DNA from: a virus
DNA length: 27,998 nt
Direction: 5' to 3' (one strand)
Virus record (IMG/VR): IMGVR_UViG_3300007644_000024
Span: 1 to 27,998 of that record
A model generated the notes under the pieces. It was not told the DNA's origin. It worked only from the letters and a program-made list of their open reading frames with translations, and did not search any database. A program made the translations under genes and the position numbers. Positions within the stretch are counted from its first letter, which is position 1; every line of letters begins with the position of its first letter. Shown one piece after another: positions 3,915-26,846 of the stretch.

Positions 3915-3960
3915 AAAAAAAAAGACCAAGCCACCCGGGAACGCCCCGGACAGCTTGGTC
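3915..3960 (-). terminator. Rho-independent terminator after the 78-aa gene
   Basis: In the transcript, GACCAAGC (3960-3953) pairs with GCTTGGTC (3931-3924). The stem continues inward through CCGGG/CCCGG, with G-U pairs that exist only in the minus-sense RNA, to a small loop. Nine U residues follow (3923-3915). The stem is about 17 base pairs. It lies 5 bases after the stop of the 3966-4202 gene. Confidence 0.92.
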
Positions 3961-3965
3961 AAAAT

Positions 3966-4202
3966 TTACTTGGACGCCGTTACGGCGTCCAAAGTGCGAA
4001 GGACGAGCTTTGAATATTGCCCAAACCTGTTCCGCCATACCACTTCACCGGGGCCAAAGGCCCCAAGAGCGGTGTTGAAAATTTCCGTGGCGCGAGCCGC
4101 CTCTTCGGAGTCGGCCGTAGCCAACTCCGCAATACCCAACCCCGTCACCATTTTCGTTAGCCTGTCTGCGGCTACTACGGACGTTACGAATTCAGTTTGC
4201 AT
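3966..4202 (-). CDS. Hairpin-rich GC-rich gene, unknown 78-aa protein
   Basis: The gene starts at ATG 4202 with GTGGAGG 9 bases upstream; an extension to 4223 lacks a ribosome-binding site. The 78-residue protein is mostly helical and Ala/Thr-rich, with no recognised family. Its DNA is clearly more GC-rich than its neighbours and its coding strand forms strong hairpins. GGGGCC/GGCCCC with a 3-base loop is at 4050-4064. A 9-pair stem with a UACG tetraloop is at 4107-4128. A perfect 10-pair stem (TTGGACGCCG with CGGCGTCCAA) at 3970-3992 covers the last codons. The gene has its own promoter-like box (4258-4270) and terminator (3915-3960), so it is an isolated transcription unit. That design suggests a strongly expressed product; whether protein, RNA or both matter is unknown. 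Confidence 0.85.
   Translation of the reverse strand: MQTEFVTSVVAADRLTKMVTGLGIAELATADSEEAARATEIFNTALGAFGPGEVVWRNRFGQYSKLVLRTLDAVTASK
3970..4128 (-). other. RNA hairpin set inside the 78-aa gene
   Basis: Three strong hairpins lie in the coding strand: 3970-3992 (10 perfect pairs, loop of 3), 4050-4064 (6 perfect pairs, loop of 3, within an outer CACC/GGTG pairing 4046-4074) and 4107-4128 (9 pairs, C-G-closed UACG loop). In the last one the only non-Watson-Crick position is U-G in the minus-sense RNA but C-A on the other strand, so it folds properly only as the sense transcript. The leader adds a weaker stem with a GUAA loop near 4227-4238. Confidence 0.7.
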
Positions 4203-4257
4203 CGTGCATCCTCCACTAAACAACGGCTTACGCCGGCACAGCTAAACCGCTGTACAT

Positions 4258-4270
4258 GTTATATGACGCA
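4258..4270 (-). promoter_or_regulatory. GCGTCATAT box before the 78-aa gene
   Basis: The minus strand reads TGCGTCATATAAC, with a -10-like TATAAC, 59 bases before ATG 4202. The same nine bases GCGTCATAT occur 64 bases before the other hairpin-rich gene (5411-5424). I found no good -35 match at 17 bases, so this may be a phage-specific or activator-dependent promoter. Confidence 0.5.
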
Positions 4271-4284
4271 ATTTTGCCTTGAAT

Positions 4285-4512
4285 TTAGGCAGGTTTGAAA
4301 GGTAGCCAATCGTCTGTATTAGAGTTCCAGCGCAGTGCTTCTTTGGTGGCAGTTAACACGTGATTGACCGTACAGTAATTAACGGCACCGCATTTACATG
4401 ACTTTGAAAAACAGTCATAAGTATTTTCATGCTCCTTACAGTCAGGAGCAATAACAACTTTCATACAAACGGTACAACGGATAACCACGGTATATTCCTC
4501 GTGTCCGCACAT
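4285..4512 (-). CDS. Small zinc-binding protein (75 aa)
   Basis: I start this gene at ATG 4512. The frame is open to 4590, but that would place a rho-independent terminator inside the coding sequence and encode an odd hydrophobic leader. The 75-residue protein has many Cys and His: CGH at 2-4, CTVC near 13-16, CKEH near 24-27, then C, CKC and C over residues 33-46. This looks like one or two small zinc sites of the ribbon or treble-clef kind. Function is unknown; small zinc proteins in phages often bind nucleic acid or host proteins. It lies between the two GC-rich hairpin genes but has ordinary composition. The ribosome-binding site is weak (GAG 6-8 bases upstream). Confidence 0.7.
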   Translation of the reverse strand: MCGHEEYTVVIRCTVCMKVVIAPDCKEHENTYDCFSKSCKCGAVNYCTVNHVLTATKEALRWNSNTDDWLPFKPA

Positions 4513-4543
4513 TCTAAGCTCGACAATAATTTCTGCAATAGTT

Positions 4544-4586
4544 AAAAAAAAGACCACGCCCAGCCCTAAGGCCAGACGTGGTCTCT
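4544..4586 (-). terminator. Rho-independent terminator after the 253-aa gene
   Basis: AGACCACG (4584-4577 side) pairs with CGTGGTCT (4558-4551 side). The stem continues with seven more pairs, three of them G-U possible only in the minus-sense RNA, up to a UUAG loop. Eight U residues follow (4551-4544). It begins a few bases after the stop at 4590. Its layout closely resembles the terminator at 3915-3960. Confidence 0.92.
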
Positions 4587-4589
4587 GCA

Positions 4590-5351
4590 TTACGCCAACA
4601 TGTCTGGCGGGAACGCCAAACTAATTTTTAGCCCGTGTGGGTATTCCACCCACTCTTTGCTGTCCCACCTTTCTCCGGTGGACAACGGAGTTAGGACGAA
4701 GGCTTGCGCCTCCTCCAAGTAGTTATCCACCTGCCCCTCTCCGAGCAAGTGTGTAACCTCGTAGGCTACGCTACCATCCGACATCGCTGTCGGAATTGGG
4801 GACTTGATGTCCCGGAGCGCCGCAAAGGCGCCCATGAAAGGATTAAGCAAGACCGAGTCCTGCTGCAAAATCAGATCGATCTTGCGCAATTGGCCGCGCA
4901 CAACAAGGGCCATGTCGGCCCATGACCTGCGCCCAGCGGCGCAAGCCGCCGTGGTCATCGCCACGTCCACCGCCACGGCAGCGGTGAACGACGCAGCGTC
5001 GTCCGCCGCGCACTGCGCGGCTGGCATCCCCCTCAAAGGGAAAACGCTTTCGGTGGCATTGATGCCACCAACAACACCTGCCCCGAAGGGCAAGATCCGC
5101 GCCACGGTGGCGCTGGGAGTGCAATCTCCCAACGCCCCGTCAAGGTAATTAGGCGGTACGTCCTGTACCACCAGCCATTCACCGGACAGTACAAAATGCC
5201 GGTCTTCGATGACCGTCACCTCCTTTGCCAGCAAGGCAACTCCCACGTTGCCTCTGAACTTTGTGGCGACACCTACTCGGTTTTTCGGCATCGTGGCATT
5301 GTGCCACTTTGCGAGCGCAATGGTGTTGTCGATATTGCTAGCAGTAGTCAT
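4590..5351 (-). CDS. Hairpin-saturated GC-rich gene, unknown 253-aa protein
   Basis: Start ATG 5351 follows GGAGG at ideal spacing; a GTG extension to 5378 is less likely and would include the leader hairpin. The protein has 253 residues, Ala/Val-rich in the middle (about 118-155) with no clear membrane segment, signal peptide or known motif. I recognise no family. The DNA is markedly GC-rich with many NNC/NNG codons. Its sense strand holds about 19 short hairpins almost back to back from 4605 to 5307 (described separately). The gene stands alone between a GCGTCATAT box (5411-5424), a leader hairpin and a strong terminator (4544-4586). The protein reading looks real, so the RNA structure seems superimposed on coding. 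High expression, mRNA protection or an RNA-level role are all possible. Confidence 0.85.
   Translation of the reverse strand: MTTASNIDNTIALAKWHNATMPKNRVGVATKFRGNVGVALLAKEVTVIEDRHFVLSGEWLVVQDVPPNYLDGALGDCTPSATVARILPFGAGVVGGINATESVFPLRGMPAAQCAADDAASFTAAVAVDVAMTTAACAAGRRSWADMALVVRGQLRKIDLILQQDSVLLNPFMGAFAALRDIKSPIPTAMSDGSVAYEVTHLLGEGQVDNYLEEAQAFVLTPLSTGERWDSKEWVEYPHGLKISLAFPPDMLA
4605..5307 (-). other. Tandem array of RNA hairpins in coding sequence
   Basis: Perfect stems of 5-7 pairs include: 4605-4618, 4637-4653, 4777-4794 (7 pairs, GCGA loop), 4799-4813, 4817-4831, 4907-4921, 4936-4949 (inside an outer ATGACC/GGTCAT stem, 4922-4958), 4968-4986, 4988-5002, 5005-5021 (7 pairs), 5052-5069 (7 pairs), 5079-5092 (C-closed UUCG loop), 5099-5113, 5114-5131, 5155-5169, 5225-5239 or 5235-5252, and 5293-5307. 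Imperfect ones: 4661-4684 (bulge) and 4698-4713 (GCAA loop, one G-U). I count ten perfect stems of at least 6 pairs with loops of 3-7; random sequence this long should give about one. Confidence 0.75.
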
Positions 5352-5377
5352 GAGAAACCTCCACGCAATAACTGACA

Positions 5378-5398
5378 CGCTATCCGAAATGGATAGCG
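5378..5398 (-). other. Leader hairpin of the 253-aa gene
   Basis: CGCTATCC and GGATAGCG form a perfect 8-pair stem with a 5-base loop. It lies between the GCGTCATAT box and the ribosome-binding site, so it would be near the 5' end of the transcript, where stable stems often protect phage mRNAs from decay. Confidence 0.7.
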
Positions 5399-5410
5399 CG
5401 ACGCATTGCA

Positions 5411-5424
5411 GATAATATGACGCG
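5411..5424 (-). promoter_or_regulatory. GCGTCATAT box before the 253-aa gene
   Basis: The minus strand reads CGCGTCATATTATC with a -10-like TATTAT, 64 bases before ATG 5351. It shares GCGTCATAT with 4258-4270. A poor -35-like ATAACA sits 17 bases upstream. Shared sequence at equal distance from two isolated genes supports a common promoter. Confidence 0.5.
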
Positions 5425-5439
5425 TTTAGGGTCTGTTAT

Positions 5440-6072
5440 TTAGTCGTCGTAATCGTCGTCATTACGCGGTATTGGCGCCTGTCTGACTTGTTTCTTTTTG
5501 TCTTCTTTGAACGTGACACTCGTTATCATTTCGACTGGACCAAAATAATAGTCTGCCTGCATCTTGACCACAGGCAATAATGTCTCAGTATCGACTTCTG
5601 TAACCGCACCATCTTTTACCGCAGGAACTGTCAATGCCGTTGCACCGTCAGGCAGATACACATACCTCTGCGGCCCCTTAGTGACAGGCAGAGGTACGCC
5701 ATAAAAAGGAAATACATAAACGTCTTTACCTTCTGCCGAACTTAAATACTTGGCCAAGGCTACAGACGTGCGTACGTTCTTAATCTTAGGAGCCTCGCCG
5801 TCTGCGCATTCGACAATCCAATAACCTATCGACGTGAAATTAGGAACGACGTCACCCACAGGCATTTCGGCTGCAACTTTTTCTTGAATGACGGTTCGTG
5901 TAAATTCGCTTAATTTGGCAAAGCTGTTTTTAAATAACTGTGCGTCATCACATACAACTGTTTTATGCATAGCCAATTCACGCGATACAGGACTACGCCG
6001 TGTTTCTTCTACCGTCTCTTTGCCGACGGGACTTAATTTGTCAAACCATGTGTTCCACGCAGCCAGTGCCAT
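5440..6072 (-). CDS. Unknown protein with acidic C-terminus (210 aa)
   Basis: The gene starts at ATG 6072, overlapping the upstream stop as TAATG, so translation is probably coupled. The 210-residue protein has a helical first third, then a beta-rich region (about 75-190), then a basic patch (KEDKKKQVRQ) and the acidic end NDDDYDD. A short Asp-rich tail is typical of ssDNA-binding proteins, which recruit partners with it. Next to genes resembling an exonuclease and a RecA-fold protein, that reading is possible. I see no OB-fold motif and do not assign a function. Confidence 0.8.
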   Translation of the reverse strand: MALAAWNTWFDKLSPVGKETVEETRRSPVSRELAMHKTVVCDDAQLFKNSFAKLSEFTRTVIQEKVAAEMPVGDVVPNFTSIGYWIVECADGEAPKIKNVRTSVALAKYLSSAEGKDVYVFPFYGVPLPVTKGPQRYVYLPDGATALTVPAVKDGAVTEVDTETLLPVVKMQADYYFGPVEMITSVTFKEDKKKQVRQAPIPRNDDDYDD

Positions 6073-15755: not shown

Positions 15756-16508
15756 TTAAATGCGGGCAGCGATGTCCGCTATGATTGGATGGCGTACGAT
15801 GTTTTCATCGCTAATATGAATTACAGCGACGCCCGGAACTTTACCGATTTTGTCAATAATGTCCATCATGGCGACCCGACCCACAAGGTCACTTTGTTTT
15901 GGATCGCCTGTGATGATCATTTTTGACCCTACTCCAATACGCGTAATAAACAATTTCAATTGCGCATAGGAACAGTTTTGCGCTTCGTCCAGAATGCACA
16001 CCGCATTCTTTAACGTACGCCCGCGCAAATAGGCAATTGGGGCAACCTCCACGCCCTTGTCAATATATTTACGTTGCGCGTTCTCTTTACCCACCAGATC
16101 ATCAAGTGCGTCGTACAACGGGAGCATGAAAGGATGTACTTTTTCCTCAAAGGATCCGGGTAAAAAACCTAAACGCTCGCCGGCTTCCACAATAGGACGT
16201 GTGATAATAATTTTCTGGGTTTTATTTTCCAGCGCGCTATGAATAGCAAACGCCGTAGCCAGAAAACTTTTACCTGTACCGGCAGTACCTATCAAAAATA
16301 CTACGTGATTTCGTGCAATTGTTTCCCAGCAAGAACGCTGAAAAGGGTTAAGGAATTCAAGACTAAATCCTTTTTTCTTTGTAACCTCCATTTCCATATG
16401 GTGTTCGGGTTCTGCCAGATCTTTACGCTGACGAACACGTCGTTTTGGCATGGGCAGGTTTCCGTGTCGCGGGTTAGCCTCAGTGTAAACCGTAGGCACG
16501 GAAACCAA
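15756..16508 (-). CDS. phoH: PhoH-like ATPase
   Basis: The protein matches the phage PhoH family, P-loop NTPases common in lytic marine phages, whose role is unclear (RNA helicase or RNase activity has been shown for bacterial PhoH-fused proteins). Walker A GTAGTGKS is at 74-81, Walker B CILDEAQN at 171-178, and the family's IITRP..EAGE.LGFLPG and ITGDPKQSDL blocks are all present. The start is unclear: TTG 16508, GTG 16499 or ATG 16451 (MPKRRVRQRK, basic). None has a strong ribosome-binding site; the ATG gives the usual family length of about 231. Confidence 0.92.
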   Translation of the reverse strand: MVSVPTVYTEANPRHGNLPMPKRRVRQRKDLAEPEHHMEMEVTKKKGFSLEFLNPFQRSCWETIARNHVVFLIGTAGTGKSFLATAFAIHSALENKTQKIIITRPIVEAGERLGFLPGSFEEKVHPFMLPLYDALDDLVGKENAQRKYIDKGVEVAPIAYLRGRTLKNAVCILDEAQNCSYAQLKLFITRIGVGSKMIITGDPKQSDLVGRVAMMDIIDKIGKVPGVAVIHISDENIVRHPIIADIAARI

Positions 16509-22410: not shown

Positions 22411-25400
22411 TTATTTTGCAAATCTCTCAGGTATCCCCAGCCGCGTGCAATCTTCAAGACTGTATGGCTCACCCCAGTACTTTTCAACCACAATGTCCAC
22501 GCCTAAGCGATAAGGACCACCGGGTCGAGGACTACCGTCCAAACCACTGGGATAAATCGGTACACACTCTTGCATTGCATAGGGAATAAGCTCATCCACA
22601 ACGTATTCGATCAAATCGTAGCGAACTTCAAGCAATGCTGCATCATGAATTTGCAGAAGCATTTTAATTTCGTTTTGTAAATCGTTGTCATGGATGATTT
22701 TACGCATCCATGCCAAACCACGATTTACACACGAAGCCACCATGCTCTGAATAGGAAAGTTCTGCGCTTGTCGTTGAAACTCGCCAAGGATCTTTTCATC
22801 AGACGTGTGGGCAAACCGGCGATACCTCCCGAAACATGAAGTCAGCCAGCGATGATTTTCAGCCCGATCCCGCGCGGAATCGAAGAAAGGCCTCAATCCT
22901 CCATACATCTGGAAGATCGTGTCAATCACCTGCTGTGCTTCGTCTACAGTAACCTCGACACCTTGCTCCTTGGCCTGAAGCGCAATTGCTTTTGCACCAC
23001 GACCATAGGCAATGCCGAAGATCACATTCTTGGCCAAGGTTCTGAAGTGCGCCTTGCCGAGGCTTTTAAGTCCTGCCTTTGTTGGCGCACAATCCAACCT
23101 GAAAGCAAGTTTGGCTACATTCGAGTGAATGTCGTAATAATCCGGATGCGGGTGTTTTCCGCCCTTCACAAGACTGCCTTCTGCATTATATCCCTCGTCA
23201 GGATGCAGCGCACGTGTTGCATGCGAAATCATAGTCGCATCGTCGGCCATTACTGCCATGCCAAACAATTCTGCGCCCTTGTAGTCAAACTCCACAAAGG
23301 CATACCCATCCGTTGCTTTTAAGATGGAACGCAACTTGTGCTTGTAGCGATCCCCAAGCATACGGAAGTAATCAGGATCTCGCGATTTGCTGATGTTTTG
23401 TAAGTTAGGACGTGCTGATCTCCAACGCCCAGTTTCTGTTGTAGGAAACAGATTGGTACGCGCACGACCGTCAGGATCAATGAATTCAGCAAGTCCGCCG
23501 TCGTAGGTCAGATTGCCGTCTTCGTCCTCATACTCGCCCGACTCTTGTTGACACGGTGGCCTCAATATAGATTTGAGCACCTGATCCAAAAACCTCTGAT
23601 CCCGCAACAAATTGATCTGATCCATTTGTGCTGGATTATCTTGCGCCAGAATCGACAGAATCATTTTGGACGTACCGGGTGACGCCGACTTAGTCAAATT
23701 CTTTTGCTTCAATTCATGCCATCTGCGAGGAGGCTTGCTGGTGTCAAGCAACGGTTCCAGATACAAACTGCGGCCCTCTTCAGGACGTAATCGCACAGGT
23801 TTACCGTCGGCATCCGTACGTCCGTTTAACGTTTCACCGAATAGAAATTCCTTGACGTGCTGCGTTGACCTGCCGTTGAAGTCCGGCCAGTTCGCCCAGT
23901 TCTTGAGCTGCTCTTCTTTCTCCGCACGCGTCTCCATGAAAGCAAACGTCAACGTGTCGATTCTGTCTCTGTCAATCAAGATACCGTTGCTGTGCATGTC
24001 GTAGATGACGGGCAACGTCAGCATCGATTCCCACAGAGCTTCCCAGCAATTGTTTCCGCAATAGTCGTACGAGATGTACTTCAGTAGCTCGACACAGATA
24101 CGCCGCGTTACATCGGCATCGTAGTTAGCGTAGGGAATCAGGATTTCATCGGGAACATCACCGTAGCCGTAGATGGCTTGTCCCAGTCGCTTCTTCTCGT
24201 CTCGTTTCCATTTCTCTAGTGGCAAGTCATACCGGGGTGCTGTCGTGTAACGCGTGCTTAATACTTCCAAACCCAACTGTGCAGTTTCTTCGACAGCGTG
24301 TGCCATCATTCCTGTGTCAAGCCAACCGTGACCTTGCTGTAAATACTTATAGGCTTCAATTGTTGGATCAGGACTTTCTACCAATACAGGACAATCACGT
24401 ATCGGATCAAAGTTGTACATCCTCAACCATTCCAAGTCAGCATTGAGGAAGTGTCCCACCGCCCTCTTGTCCTGCATGAATGTCTGCAACAATTCCATCA
24501 ACGCAGGAACGGCATTCTCACCAGCAGCGTTAACAAAACACGGGTTGCCTCCCGGTTCCGTCAAGACAAAGCATATCGCCTTCTTGTGTCCCCACGACGC
24601 CTGAAGCGTACGCATGTAGCCACCGGGTTTGCGTGGACTTGGACCATGCCACTCAGCGTCCCAAGCAATCAATCTGTCTTTCAACGGCAATTCCGTAAAC
24701 TCGTAATTAACTTCCGCAACCCAGTCTTCTACTTCTTCCAACGTCCTGACGGCCCGGTGATCAACATCTACTTCCGTGTTGTCTAACGTCGCTCCAGCAA
24801 TCAACATCTTGAACCTAGCCAGATTGCGTTCAAACTGCCGAGCTTTGACAGGATCCCTTGTCACCTCACTTGGATGAATCGAGACCAACACTGAACACTC
24901 GTGAAATTCTTCAGGCTGATCTTCTGCCGTGTGAATCGGAAACCTGTACGTAAGCACCTGCCCTTCCGATTCAGATACTTTGGCATTCTTACCAAACAAC
25001 GCTTTCAGTGCATCCGCTCCCAAGCACAAGATGTACTTGGGCTGCACGATACGCAATTCCTGATGCAACAGCGGTAAGCAATCCGCCAACCACGCCGCTT
25101 TGATCGTTGCAGCATTAGCGGGCAACAAAAACTTAATAACGTTTGTTACGTACCATTTGTTGTAATTAGTAATTCCGACGGTTTGTAACGCATCTTTGAG
25201 AGCCTGTCCTGCTGGTCCTACAAAGTTGGCGCAGACCCTTGCCTCTTCCTTCCACGGTACTTTGCCTATTACCATCACGTCAGTAGGCACAGGCCCAACT
25301 GAGAAACTGAACGCTCCTGCCAGATTCTCTAATGCAAAACTGCTATTGCCCGCATACCGTCCCCACAGATGCCCCGGTACAAAGTTCACAGGTTCCGAAT

Positions 25401-25764
25401 ATCCCGGTCGCACTACCACGGGCAGTGTAAATCCACGTTCACGCAACGCCCGCGTGTACAACTTCAACAGCGTTTCAGCCGGAATGTATTGTTGCTCAGA
25501 TTTTTTCTTAGAGTTCTTTTTAGGCAAAATCGTTGCGTTGTGCCCGTCCAAATGCGTTGCATGTAACAAGAAGTTAGGCCCGGGTGGCGGCATGCCGGGC
25601 GCGTTGTACGCCCAGCAACCTTGCTTGTTGATACGGCTACCAATCACACGCCGTTTAAGGCGAGCGTCGTCAGTAACGGGATCTAGCAAACGCCGCCTGA
25701 TTTTTTTAGGTTGCGGCGTATTGTCAGGCGAATCGGACAAATCGCCTTTATGAATGTTCCGCAT
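22411..25764 (-). CDS. polA: Family A DNA polymerase fused to a UDG-like domain
   Basis: The 1117-residue protein replicates phage DNA. Residues 1-95 are basic. Residues 160-320 match uracil-DNA glycosylases of family 4/5 layout: GKVPW (usual GEAPG), NFVGPAG, VTNVIKFLLP, and ILCLGADALKALFGK, then IHPS. Residues 365-560 are a proofreading domain with D370/E372, D444 and Y546/D550. The polymerase core has TGRWRSARPNLQNI, motif A D828...E833, motif B R909/K913/F917/Y921, and motif C as IHDA with D1042 but Ala for the usual Glu. The O-helix Phe matches E. coli F762. ATG 25764 follows GAGG and overlaps the primase stop (TGATG); a GTG is one codon earlier and residue numbers above count from it. 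Confidence 0.92.
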   Translation of the reverse strand: MRNIHKGDLSDSPDNTPQPKKIRRRLLDPVTDDARLKRRVIGSRINKQGCWAYNAPGMPPPGPNFLLHATHLDGHNATILPKKNSKKKSEQQYIPAETLLKLYTRALRERGFTLPVVVRPGYSEPVNFVPGHLWGRYAGNSSFALENLAGAFSFSVGPVPTDVMVIGKVPWKEEARVCANFVGPAGQALKDALQTVGITNYNKWYVTNVIKFLLPANAATIKAAWLADCLPLLHQELRIVQPKYILCLGADALKALFGKNAKVSESEGQVLTYRFPIHTAEDQPEEFHECSVLVSIHPSEVTRDPVKARQFERNLARFKMLIAGATLDNTEVDVDHRAVRTLEEVEDWVAEVNYEFTELPLKDRLIAWDAEWHGPSPRKPGGYMRTLQASWGHKKAICFVLTEPGGNPCFVNAAGENAVPALMELLQTFMQDKRAVGHFLNADLEWLRMYNFDPIRDCPVLVESPDPTIEAYKYLQQGHGWLDTGMMAHAVEETAQLGLEVLSTRYTTAPRYDLPLEKWKRDEKKRLGQAIYGYGDVPDEILIPYANYDADVTRRICVELLKYISYDYCGNNCWEALWESMLTLPVIYDMHSNGILIDRDRIDTLTFAFMETRAEKEEQLKNWANWPDFNGRSTQHVKEFLFGETLNGRTDADGKPVRLRPEEGRSLYLEPLLDTSKPPRRWHELKQKNLTKSASPGTSKMILSILAQDNPAQMDQINLLRDQRFLDQVLKSILRPPCQQESGEYEDEDGNLTYDGGLAEFIDPDGRARTNLFPTTETGRWRSARPNLQNISKSRDPDYFRMLGDRYKHKLRSILKATDGYAFVEFDYKGAELFGMAVMADDATMISHATRALHPDEGYNAEGSLVKGGKHPHPDYYDIHSNVAKLAFRLDCAPTKAGLKSLGKAHFRTLAKNVIFGIAYGRGAKAIALQAKEQGVEVTVDEAQQVIDTIFQMYGGLRPFFDSARDRAENHRWLTSCFGRYRRFAHTSDEKILGEFQRQAQNFPIQSMVASCVNRGLAWMRKIIHDNDLQNEIKMLLQIHDAALLEVRYDLIEYVVDELIPYAMQECVPIYPSGLDGSPRPGGPYRLGVDIVVEKYWGEPYSLEDCTRLGIPERFAK

Positions 25765-26846
25765 CACGTATCCTCTTTTGTTTTCTGGCAGACCATGCGA
25801 TTGAACGTCACGGTAACGCCCTGTAACGCTGCCTGTTCTTTGACATACTTGCGCAAGACCCTACGGTTTGTAGACCCGGGATCTGTACCTTCTGGCAACT
25901 TGACGTGAACAAACCCACCAGAATGCGCAAGCAAACGAGGATTGTGCAACAAGTTCTGCACATGCTTCTCAGCGTATGCCTCAGGATCAAACAACAACAC
26001 GATTGGTCGCGCAGGACGCCTAAACGCTGCTGTGATTAATTCTAATTGCCTGTCGCTTATGGAATGGCCGAAAGTGCATACAGCACCATCACCAAAACCC
26101 CATACATCAACAACGCCTTCCGTGATGACGCAGGCGTTGAACAGCCTAGACCTGTCAAGGTTGTACACAACCGTGCTTTTCGACATCCCCGGCATCGTAA
26201 AGTACTTTGGAGGTAAATTCTTCTGCGTCTTCCAGTCCAGTTCACCAACATATCGTGCCTGCCATCCTTTCAATACTTTGTTCTGATAGACAGGAATTAT
26301 CAAACGGTCTTTGGCCAAACTATACCGACTGGCTACACAGTACCGCACGTCGTAAATGCGTTGCAGGCGCCCGGGATCATACCCACGCTCTTGCACATAC
26401 TGGATTGCTGCATGTTCTTGTGGCAAAGTCAGCAATGGAACACAATCGCCCGGCCACACGGCAATCGTGTCGCTTTCCGCCACTCTGCGTCCCGGTTTTA
26501 CTTGCACCTCGCTCAACGGAATCAACATAGGTGATTCCAGCTTGTCCACAAACTCGGAATAATACTGTGGATTGCTCAAGCAATTCTCGTTGAAGCAATG
26601 TGCCAAAAACCTCATCGGCTTACCGTCAGAACCGTTCTGCCCAAACATGTACGAGATGTACAGGCGGAACCGAGAATCCGTACAGAATGGGCAGCATACC
26701 TGATAGTACTCACCCTTACTGCGGAAATTCAAACGACGCTTGCCCGCCACCATCATGGTGTCAGCATCAAATTGTTGACCAGCGCTGGAAACCCGAACTC
26801 TGCCAAAAAGGGTTTCCAGCCGCTTGTGTAGTGGGAAATTAAGCAT
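25764..26846 (-). CDS. DNA primase (zinc-binding and Toprim)
   Basis: This 360-residue primase makes RNA primers for lagging-strand synthesis. The zinc domain has CCPFC (51-55) and HCFNENC (83-89), a CHC2-type site. A linking segment, YSLAKDRLIIPVYQNKVLKGWQARYV, is typical of phage and bacterial primases. The Toprim domain has the catalytic Glu in ITEGVVD (243) and LLFDPEA (287-290). Helicase and primase are separate proteins here, unlike T7 gp4. ATG 26846 overlaps the helicase stop as TAATG. A strong hairpin covers codons about 9-21. Confidence 0.85.
   Translation of the reverse strand: MLNFPLHKRLETLFGRVRVSSAGQQFDADTMMVAGKRRLNFRSKGEYYQVCCPFCTDSRFRLYISYMFGQNGSDGKPMRFLAHCFNENCLSNPQYYSEFVDKLESPMLIPLSEVQVKPGRRVAESDTIAVWPGDCVPLLTLPQEHAAIQYVQERGYDPGRLQRIYDVRYCVASRYSLAKDRLIIPVYQNKVLKGWQARYVGELDWKTQKNLPPKYFTMPGMSKSTVVYNLDRSRLFNACVITEGVVDVWGFGDGAVCTFGHSISDRQLELITAAFRRPARPIVLLFDPEAYAEKHVQNLLHNPRLLAHSGGFVHVKLPEGTDPGSTNRRVLRKYVKEQAALQGVTVTFNRMVCQKTKEDT
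26784..26820 (-). other. Hairpin over the first codons of the primase
   Basis: GCTGGAAACCC and GGGTTTCCAGC form a perfect 11-pair stem with a 15-base loop, and four more pairs beyond a one-base bulge. It begins 26 bases inside the primase gene. A stem here could slow ribosomes or limit expression compared with helicase. Confidence 0.7.

Follow-up and report, generated by a model that had tools for sequence, protein, structure and literature searches.

Near-continuous hairpin chains in a class of small, motif-defined genes of a tailed phage

The phage that carries the hairpin-packed gene described here has at least nine units defined by a motif, this gene among them. They form a class of small transcription units, found in one phage group, that have a promoter-like motif in common. 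The overall hairpin content of these genes is maintained via synonymous choices, and not as one fold: selection is visible only in the summed folding, not in single stems. The wider reading that we propose, and whose chances we regard as evenly balanced, is that a double-stranded DNA phage keeps a promoter-defined class of armoured accessory-gene messages, written by synonymous choice as near-continuous hairpin chains whose stems are lost and regained. This would be GORS in the mRNA of a DNA virus, restricted to one transcript class and probably directed against ribonucleases or RNA-targeting immunity.

The window, that is the whole stretch of DNA analysed, is a 27,998-base IMG/VR record; the same protein as that of the hairpin gene is encoded in a 186,054-base contig, G001. 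The phage is a tailed one with double-stranded DNA, since a DNA polymerase A, a tail sheath, a baseplate and an RNA polymerase beta subunit are encoded. The hairpin gene is the minus-strand open reading frame (ORF) 4590-5378, and its likely start is the ATG at 5351, preceded by GGAGG. The features of its unit (P3a) and of the next unit (P4a) are listed below, with the basis of each in brackets.

4590-5351, minus strand: coding sequence of the hairpin-packed 253-aa protein, no assigned function (ATG 5351; z -7.3; homologues)
5409-5443, minus strand: promoter-like motif of the hairpin gene unit, CTAAAT ... GCGTCATATTATCTG (18-unit alignment, motif scan)
5364-5410, minus strand: 5' leader hairpin with a perfect core at 5378-5398 (8 pairs) and the loop AUUUC (leader alignment, stem count)
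4543-4584, minus strand: intrinsic terminator, a 15-pair stem plus T run immediately past the stop codon (sequence, fold)
4255-4288, minus strand: promoter-like motif of the next unit, P4a (unit alignment, motif scan)
3966-4202, minus strand: coding sequence of the second hairpin-rich unit, P4a, z -3.3 (codon-preserving shuffles)
3917-3960, minus strand: terminator of the second unit, P4a (fold, position of the T run)

The minus-strand ORF 4285-4590 (101 aa) has its called start, 4590, upstream of the terminator of the hairpin gene and reads through it. In a relative, L014, its counterpart begins past the terminator (7893), so an ATG near 4512 may be the true start.

Ten perfect stems had been reported in the initial annotation, each with 6 or more pairs and a loop of 3-7. 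By this definition 12 perfect Watson-Crick stems are counted in 4590-5400: 11 in the coding sequence, plus the 8-pair leader stem at 5378-5398. The coding sequences of 300 codon-preserving shuffles contain 1.97 +- 1.32 such stems and never more than 6, which confirms the excess but corrects the guess of about one stem by chance. Three hairpins with stable tetraloops are also present where they had been placed: UUCG (5 pairs, 5079-5092), GCGA (4777-4794) and GCAA, with one G-U pair (4698-4713). When the fold of lowest energy is computed with a span of 60, the coding sequence contains 26 hairpin loops. Under a weaker definition (5 pairs, G-U allowed) there are 24 hairpins against 18.3 +- 1.9, and the shuffle maximum is also 24. 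This count is much less exceptional, so the signal lies in the long, perfect stems.

The folding energy also falls outside the range of codon-preserving shuffles, as the annotation would have it. Local folding of the longer frame that starts at GTG gives a z of -8.4, and none of 200 shuffles is equally low; the energy is -0.448 kcal/mol per nt, versus -0.346 in codon-permuted versions with unchanged protein and codon counts, all folds having base pairs of no more than 60 nt in span. Elsewhere in the window, 28 further ORFs were examined and range from z +0.6 to -5.9. In general, ordinary genes also fold slightly better than their codon shuffles (23 of these 28 ORFs have a z between 0 and -4), and the second most structured of the 29 examined, the minus-strand ORF 15756-16508 (z -5.9), is without the unit motif.

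The full unit motif, CTAAAT-N(12-14)-G(C/T)GTCATA, occurs at nine sites in G001, at nine in a 74-kb relative (G007), at two in a 66-kb contig (G002) and at two in the window, always on the minus strand as stored. It is absent (0 sites) from Salmonella phage Arash and Vibrio phage D69, two remotely related isolates. There is no obvious -35 TTGACA in the shared motif, which is reminiscent of sigma-28-type promoters. Its core, GCGTCATA, has 14 matches in G001, and the eight with CTAAAT upstream lead into hairpin units. All units except P9a were collected via this core, with only these eight G001 matches kept. CTAAAT plus GCGTCATA is present in 18 of 18 aligned units, which had been selected by the core. 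P9a was flagged first by a folding scan and its variant motif recognised afterwards; it is one of the nine G001 sites. One motif site in G007, L116:12131, was left out of the unit analysis.

In most of the nine G001 units, a hairpin in the 5' leader is followed by a coding sequence rich in hairpins and then by a terminator. The 66-nt leader stretches fold at -20 kcal/mol or below in 16 of 18 cases, the exceptions being P5a (-16.8) and P8a (-18.0); the leaders of P4a, P4b and P4c form several smaller hairpins in a row, not one. Seven of the 18 leaders share a hairpin core, CCAUUUCGG. Among the seven leaders of the commonest type (six of them distinct), both sides of the stem have changed with pairing kept at 5 of 21 pairs, a result found in 12 of 500 shuffles. 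A downstream T run is present in 17 of 18 units; P5a is without it, yet has a strong stem past the stop codon. P8a carries an extra short ORF ahead of its terminator, and in some slots the proteins differ between the two phages.

The strength of folding was compared among 20 unit coding sequences, with 100 codon shuffles each; these include the second ORFs P8a2 and P8b2 (the latter beyond the terminator of its unit), and orthologues among them are not independent. The z-scores are -13.5 for P3b, -13.0 for P3c, -11.8 for P6b, -10.8 for P2b, -8.6 for P2a, -7.4 for P5a and -7.3 for the hairpin gene itself, P3a. They continue with -6.9 for both P4b and P4c, -5.9 for P8a, -5.6 for P7a, -4.8 for P7b, -3.9 for P9b and -3.8 for P8b2, and end with -3.3 for P4a, -2.9 for P1a, -2.8 for P1b, -1.9 for P6a, -1.7 for P8a2 and -1.2 for P8b. 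For 16 of the 20, not one of the 100 shuffles is as low. P9a, found later, has a z of -3.4. Watson-Crick stems of at least 7 pairs number 78 in the 20 sequences, against 13.8 +- 2.6.

Against the background of their own genome the units stand out as well. Eight G001 unit genes have far more structure than 179 other genes (Mann-Whitney p=1.6e-10), and six of the eight lie above all 179 in energy excess per nt; P1a and P6a are inside the background range, and the mean excess of the 179 is only -0.014 per nt. This background is made of 184 mechanically called ORFs of at least 90 aa, less five unit ORFs; up to 1200 nt of each were folded and compared with 16 shuffles, and the test leaves out P9a and the second ORF of P8a. 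By energy excess the hairpin gene ranks third among the 184 ORFs; in the first, L034:1959-2285, three quarters of the bases are paired over a 420-nt unit that includes a 16-pair perfect stem. Further, the six most structured of 89 ORFs in G007 are unit genes. Folding is not exclusive to the class: two genes without the motif, L041:3303-3758 (z -6.7) and L036:4097-5701 (z -6.2), also fold well. The minus-strand stretch L042:3401-3600 shows a strong folding peak too; it is repetitive, without the unit motif, and apparently a repeat-rich coding sequence.

No hairpin-rich genes of the unit kind were found among 241 ORFs of Arash and 278 of D69 (minimum ORF length 60 aa, 12 shuffles each, up to 900 nt). 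The lowest excess per nt is -0.065 in Arash and -0.083 in D69, versus -0.25 in G001. The mean over all ORFs is -0.014 per nt in Arash and -0.016 in D69.

As expected of Watson-Crick stems, the antisense RNA of the unit coding sequences also folds extremely. The sense strand is nevertheless favoured beyond its own shuffles in 16 of 20 coding sequences (p=0.006, with orthologues counted apart). In strict stems, G-U pairs outnumber A-C mismatches by 15:2 and 19:2; in looser stems the ratios are 22:12 and 16:9, which is not significant, so the excess depends on the definition of a stem. Together, the G-U excess and the sense preference are moderate evidence for selection on the mRNA.

The structure is placed in the body of the genes. 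Around the start the unpaired fraction is 0.46 in units and 0.44 in other genes; in the body it is 0.354 against a background of 0.453, and unpaired runs longer than 10 nt occur 3.0 times per kb against 5.65, both differences being uncorrected for the higher G+C of the unit genes. The background here is every second of the 184 G001 ORFs, minus unit ORFs. A translatable mRNA with few single-stranded stretches is what a model of protection from endoribonucleases would predict.

How this folding is inherited can be followed among relatives. Distant homologues of the hairpin gene, 43% identical in alignment A2, occupy the same genomic place in two relatives and have a z of -13. The proteins of P3b and P3c are 72% identical, and their differences fall as 78/55/174 on the three codon positions (351 each); as third-position differences dominate, the unit proteins are conserved. 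The base pairs are not: from P3a to P3b 99 of 223 pairs are still possible (null 100), and from P4b to P4c 39 of 76 are retained (null 41). Nearer relatives exceed the null, with 251 of 363 pairs from P3b to P3c (null 211) and 78 of 88 from P2a to P2b (null 61). Neither retained-pair nor double-change counts show a compensatory excess in the coding stems, among which no common loop was found. Despite pair loss at the null level, P3a, P3b, P4b and P4c have z-scores of -6.9 to -13.5. The annotation had named, as evidence against selection on structure, homologues in which the protein is kept and the stems are lost; the distant homologues do lose the individual stems, but they stay stem-rich.

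The same picture is obtained at short range. In three comparisons of variants of the hairpin gene, synonymous changes break 10, 10 and 13 pairs, versus 13.0, 12.3 and 11.2 with random placement, and in P2 and P3b/P3c they likewise break pairs about as often as randomly placed changes. The three variants have z-scores of -7.7, -9.4 and -11.1. When the same codon changes are reassigned among eligible codons, the energy is -321 versus a real -353 from the window to L002, and -383 versus -478 from P3b to P3c. The cost of random codon placement is about 16-31 kcal/mol for close variants, 17 for P2 and 96-106 for P3b/P3c, and in eight comparisons the random placements that reach the real energy number 0, 0, 2, 0, 0, 0, 0 and 1 of 150. 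Pairs thus break at a near-random rate yet the energy is held, which indicates that total folding is kept and single stems are exchanged. The idea that RNA structure is under selection in addition to the encoded protein is therefore supported by the codon-preserving shuffles, by the energy kept across variants and by a modest preference for the sense strand.

Hypermutation of the hairpin gene was considered, as its variants differ and the neighbouring proteins match. However, in the aligned part the 66-kb contig and G001 are 4.2% different in a patchy manner, so the hairpin gene is not special in its divergence.

A tblastn search with the hairpin gene against the phages collection returned zero matches, and a search of the genome contigs collection gave 40 pattern stretches, none of them a relative. 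Among ten window proteins searched against Pfam and PHROGs the sole match is the DNA polymerase at 22411-25767, and ten unit proteins gave no Pfam match and one weak PHROG without known function. Structure prediction of the protein from five sequences was unsuccessful (mean pLDDT 32.5). At the gathering score no Rfam family matched in the window; at an E-value threshold, 4200-5700 gave two chance-level matches (E 0.5-0.8).

The DNA polymerase A (minus strand) is fused to a uracil-DNA glycosylase domain and a 3'-5' exonuclease. Its best full-length matches in the phages collection, at about 30% identity, are Vibrio phages D181, D148 and D69 and Salmonella phage Arash; at E 1e-5, Arash or D69 has a homologue for only 10 of the 184 ORFs in G001. 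Homologues of three Arash proteins, gp206, gp216 and gp10, are nevertheless encoded in G001, the last, a sigma factor, being detected by pairwise search (27% identity over residues 9-144). Sigma-70 regions 2 and 4 gave nothing over the cut-off in G001 or G007, and homologues of gp216 and gp10 were not found in the 74-kb G007, which is possibly a fragment. A search for a T7-like RNA polymerase, run without a working control, gave no match. On the minus strand at L036:15004-17154 lies a gene for an SbcC-like subunit of a palindrome-specific endonuclease, a curious presence beside palindrome-filled genes.

In Arash (PMC10585845), no virion protein gave more spectra than the beta subunit gp206, the virion also contains gp216 and the sigma factor gp10, and early transcription is given as one of two possible reasons for a virion RNA polymerase. 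Because G001 has homologues of these virion RNA polymerase subunits and of the sigma factor, it is plausible that the hairpin units are transcribed early by an injected polymerase.

The structure itself is well supported by these computations; what the hairpins are for is inferred. Among the functions offered in the initial annotation, protection from RNases would fit best. That the hairpins armour one transcript class against ribonucleases, perhaps the early mRNAs of a virion RNA polymerase, is the explanation that we favour, tentatively and at somewhat less than even chances. RNase E requires single-stranded sites and prefers free 5' ends. A unit transcript would begin just downstream of GCGTCATATnACATG and end at the terminator; the 5' hairpin would block attack that depends on the 5' end, and 3' exonucleases would be stopped by the terminator. 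Endoribonucleases such as RNase E, or an RNase-based defence, require long single-stranded stretches, which the hairpin chain would eliminate, with the start region left as accessible as elsewhere so that translation can begin. Unit messages would then be predicted to outlive other messages. Message decay does matter to phages, as T4 illustrates: host RNase E is active for the whole of the infection, RNase LS is counteracted by Dmd, and gene 32 has a long-lived message (PMC3014915).

Other explanations share part of this evidence. Folding might hide targets from RNA-guided immunity (Cas13, type III CRISPR or antisense RNAs), for which the first transcripts would matter most. Jumbo phages that form a nucleus can be attacked by Cas13 and type III systems, which target RNA (PMC12908238), and it would suit such evasion that generic folding counts and no specific fold; nevertheless, the armour is confined to a single class of small genes, though RNA-targeting systems could hit any transcript, and we rate evasion as rather unlikely. 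Control of translation speed or timing, by hairpins that slow ribosomes, lower protein yield or couple folding to translation, agrees with the position of the structure, within the coding sequence but away from the start region. Pause sites would need conserved stem positions, however, and distant homologues show none relative to the protein, which makes this reading unlikely in our estimate. It is improbable, too, that selection plays no part and that perfect hairpins are created again and again by mutation, through template switching at quasi-palindromes. The stems are indeed often perfect and turn over, and the antisense strand is nearly as folded; but hairpins are concentrated in motif-defined units and the start region is no more folded than that of other genes, the sense strand is favoured, and energy is held across variants.

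The RNA could also act as RNA, e.g. as a scaffold, a condensate seed, a protein sponge or a packaged RNA, with the protein being secondary. The high folding and the CCAUUUCGG hairpin of some leaders would fit this, but distant homologues are without a conserved fold, the coding stems without a common loop, and the proteins are conserved with a third-position excess. The initial annotation had included compact virion RNA and a dual mRNA/noncoding RNA among its possibilities; both are weakened by the turnover of individual stems and the lack of a credible Rfam match in the window, and we consider a role of this kind very unlikely. Least probable of all is that co-transcriptional hairpins aid the polymerase by preventing R-loops or backtracking under an unusual phage RNA polymerase: one promoter class is common to the units and the phage encodes its own multisubunit enzyme, but Arash and D69 have a homologous polymerase and yet no hairpin genes.

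The preferred reading, armour against ribonucleases, can be set beside several known systems; in the open-access literature searched, we came across no account of phage genes whose coding sequence is such a chain of hairpins. Structured noncoding phage RNAs such as GOLLD and ROOL are a poor match, as no Rfam family was matched in the window and proteins are conserved, P3b and P3c being the example. The T4 gene 32 mRNA has a stabilising leader structure. It is the stablest message of its phage, with a half-life of 15 minutes in a cell where RNase E is active, and translation raises its stability (PMC3014915). In the units described here, by contrast, the whole coding sequence is structured, and long message life is a prediction.

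Phages with a virion RNA polymerase (AR9, phiKZ, Arash) resemble this one in having their own multisubunit enzyme. In AR9, early promoters have a motif of their own, AAATATATATTAT (PMC5312081). However, the unit motif is not AT-only, and Arash and D69 lack both motif and hairpin genes. The layout of the units, with a repeated promoter-like motif, a leader and a terminator around small genes, is reminiscent of the PeSL cassettes of T4-type phages. Arbiol et al. 2010 reportedly described them as small accessory genes separated by repeated cassettes of promoter and stem-loop, and folded coding sequence is said to be no part of the cassette. PeSL genes are said to be exchangeable, and their promoters to be early ones of the host sigma-70 type; the different proteins in some slots of the two phages may hint at exchange here too. 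The promoter is another one here, and in the units the transcript begins with a leader hairpin and its coding sequence is folded.

The closest likeness is to GORS of hepatitis C virus, where tandem stem-loops run through the coding sequence, which folds more strongly than controls, and where the structures are mostly unique to a genotype and the degree of folding is shared (PMC7566573); the units here show both the stronger folding and this pattern. GORS extends across an RNA virus genome, and this is not the case here: the virus is a double-stranded DNA phage, one motif-defined class of short mRNAs is folded and the other genes are near-ordinary. If the proposed reading is true, nature would offer in these units coding sequences that are written to make a message last, and the remaining genes of the phage would be built-in controls with which the benefit of generic message folding becomes testable. 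It is on this contrast with GORS, a DNA phage with a single folded promoter class among near-ordinary genes, that the interest of the units rests: pervasive RNA structure in coding regions would then not be limited to RNA viruses, and could be used on one promoter class of a DNA virus.
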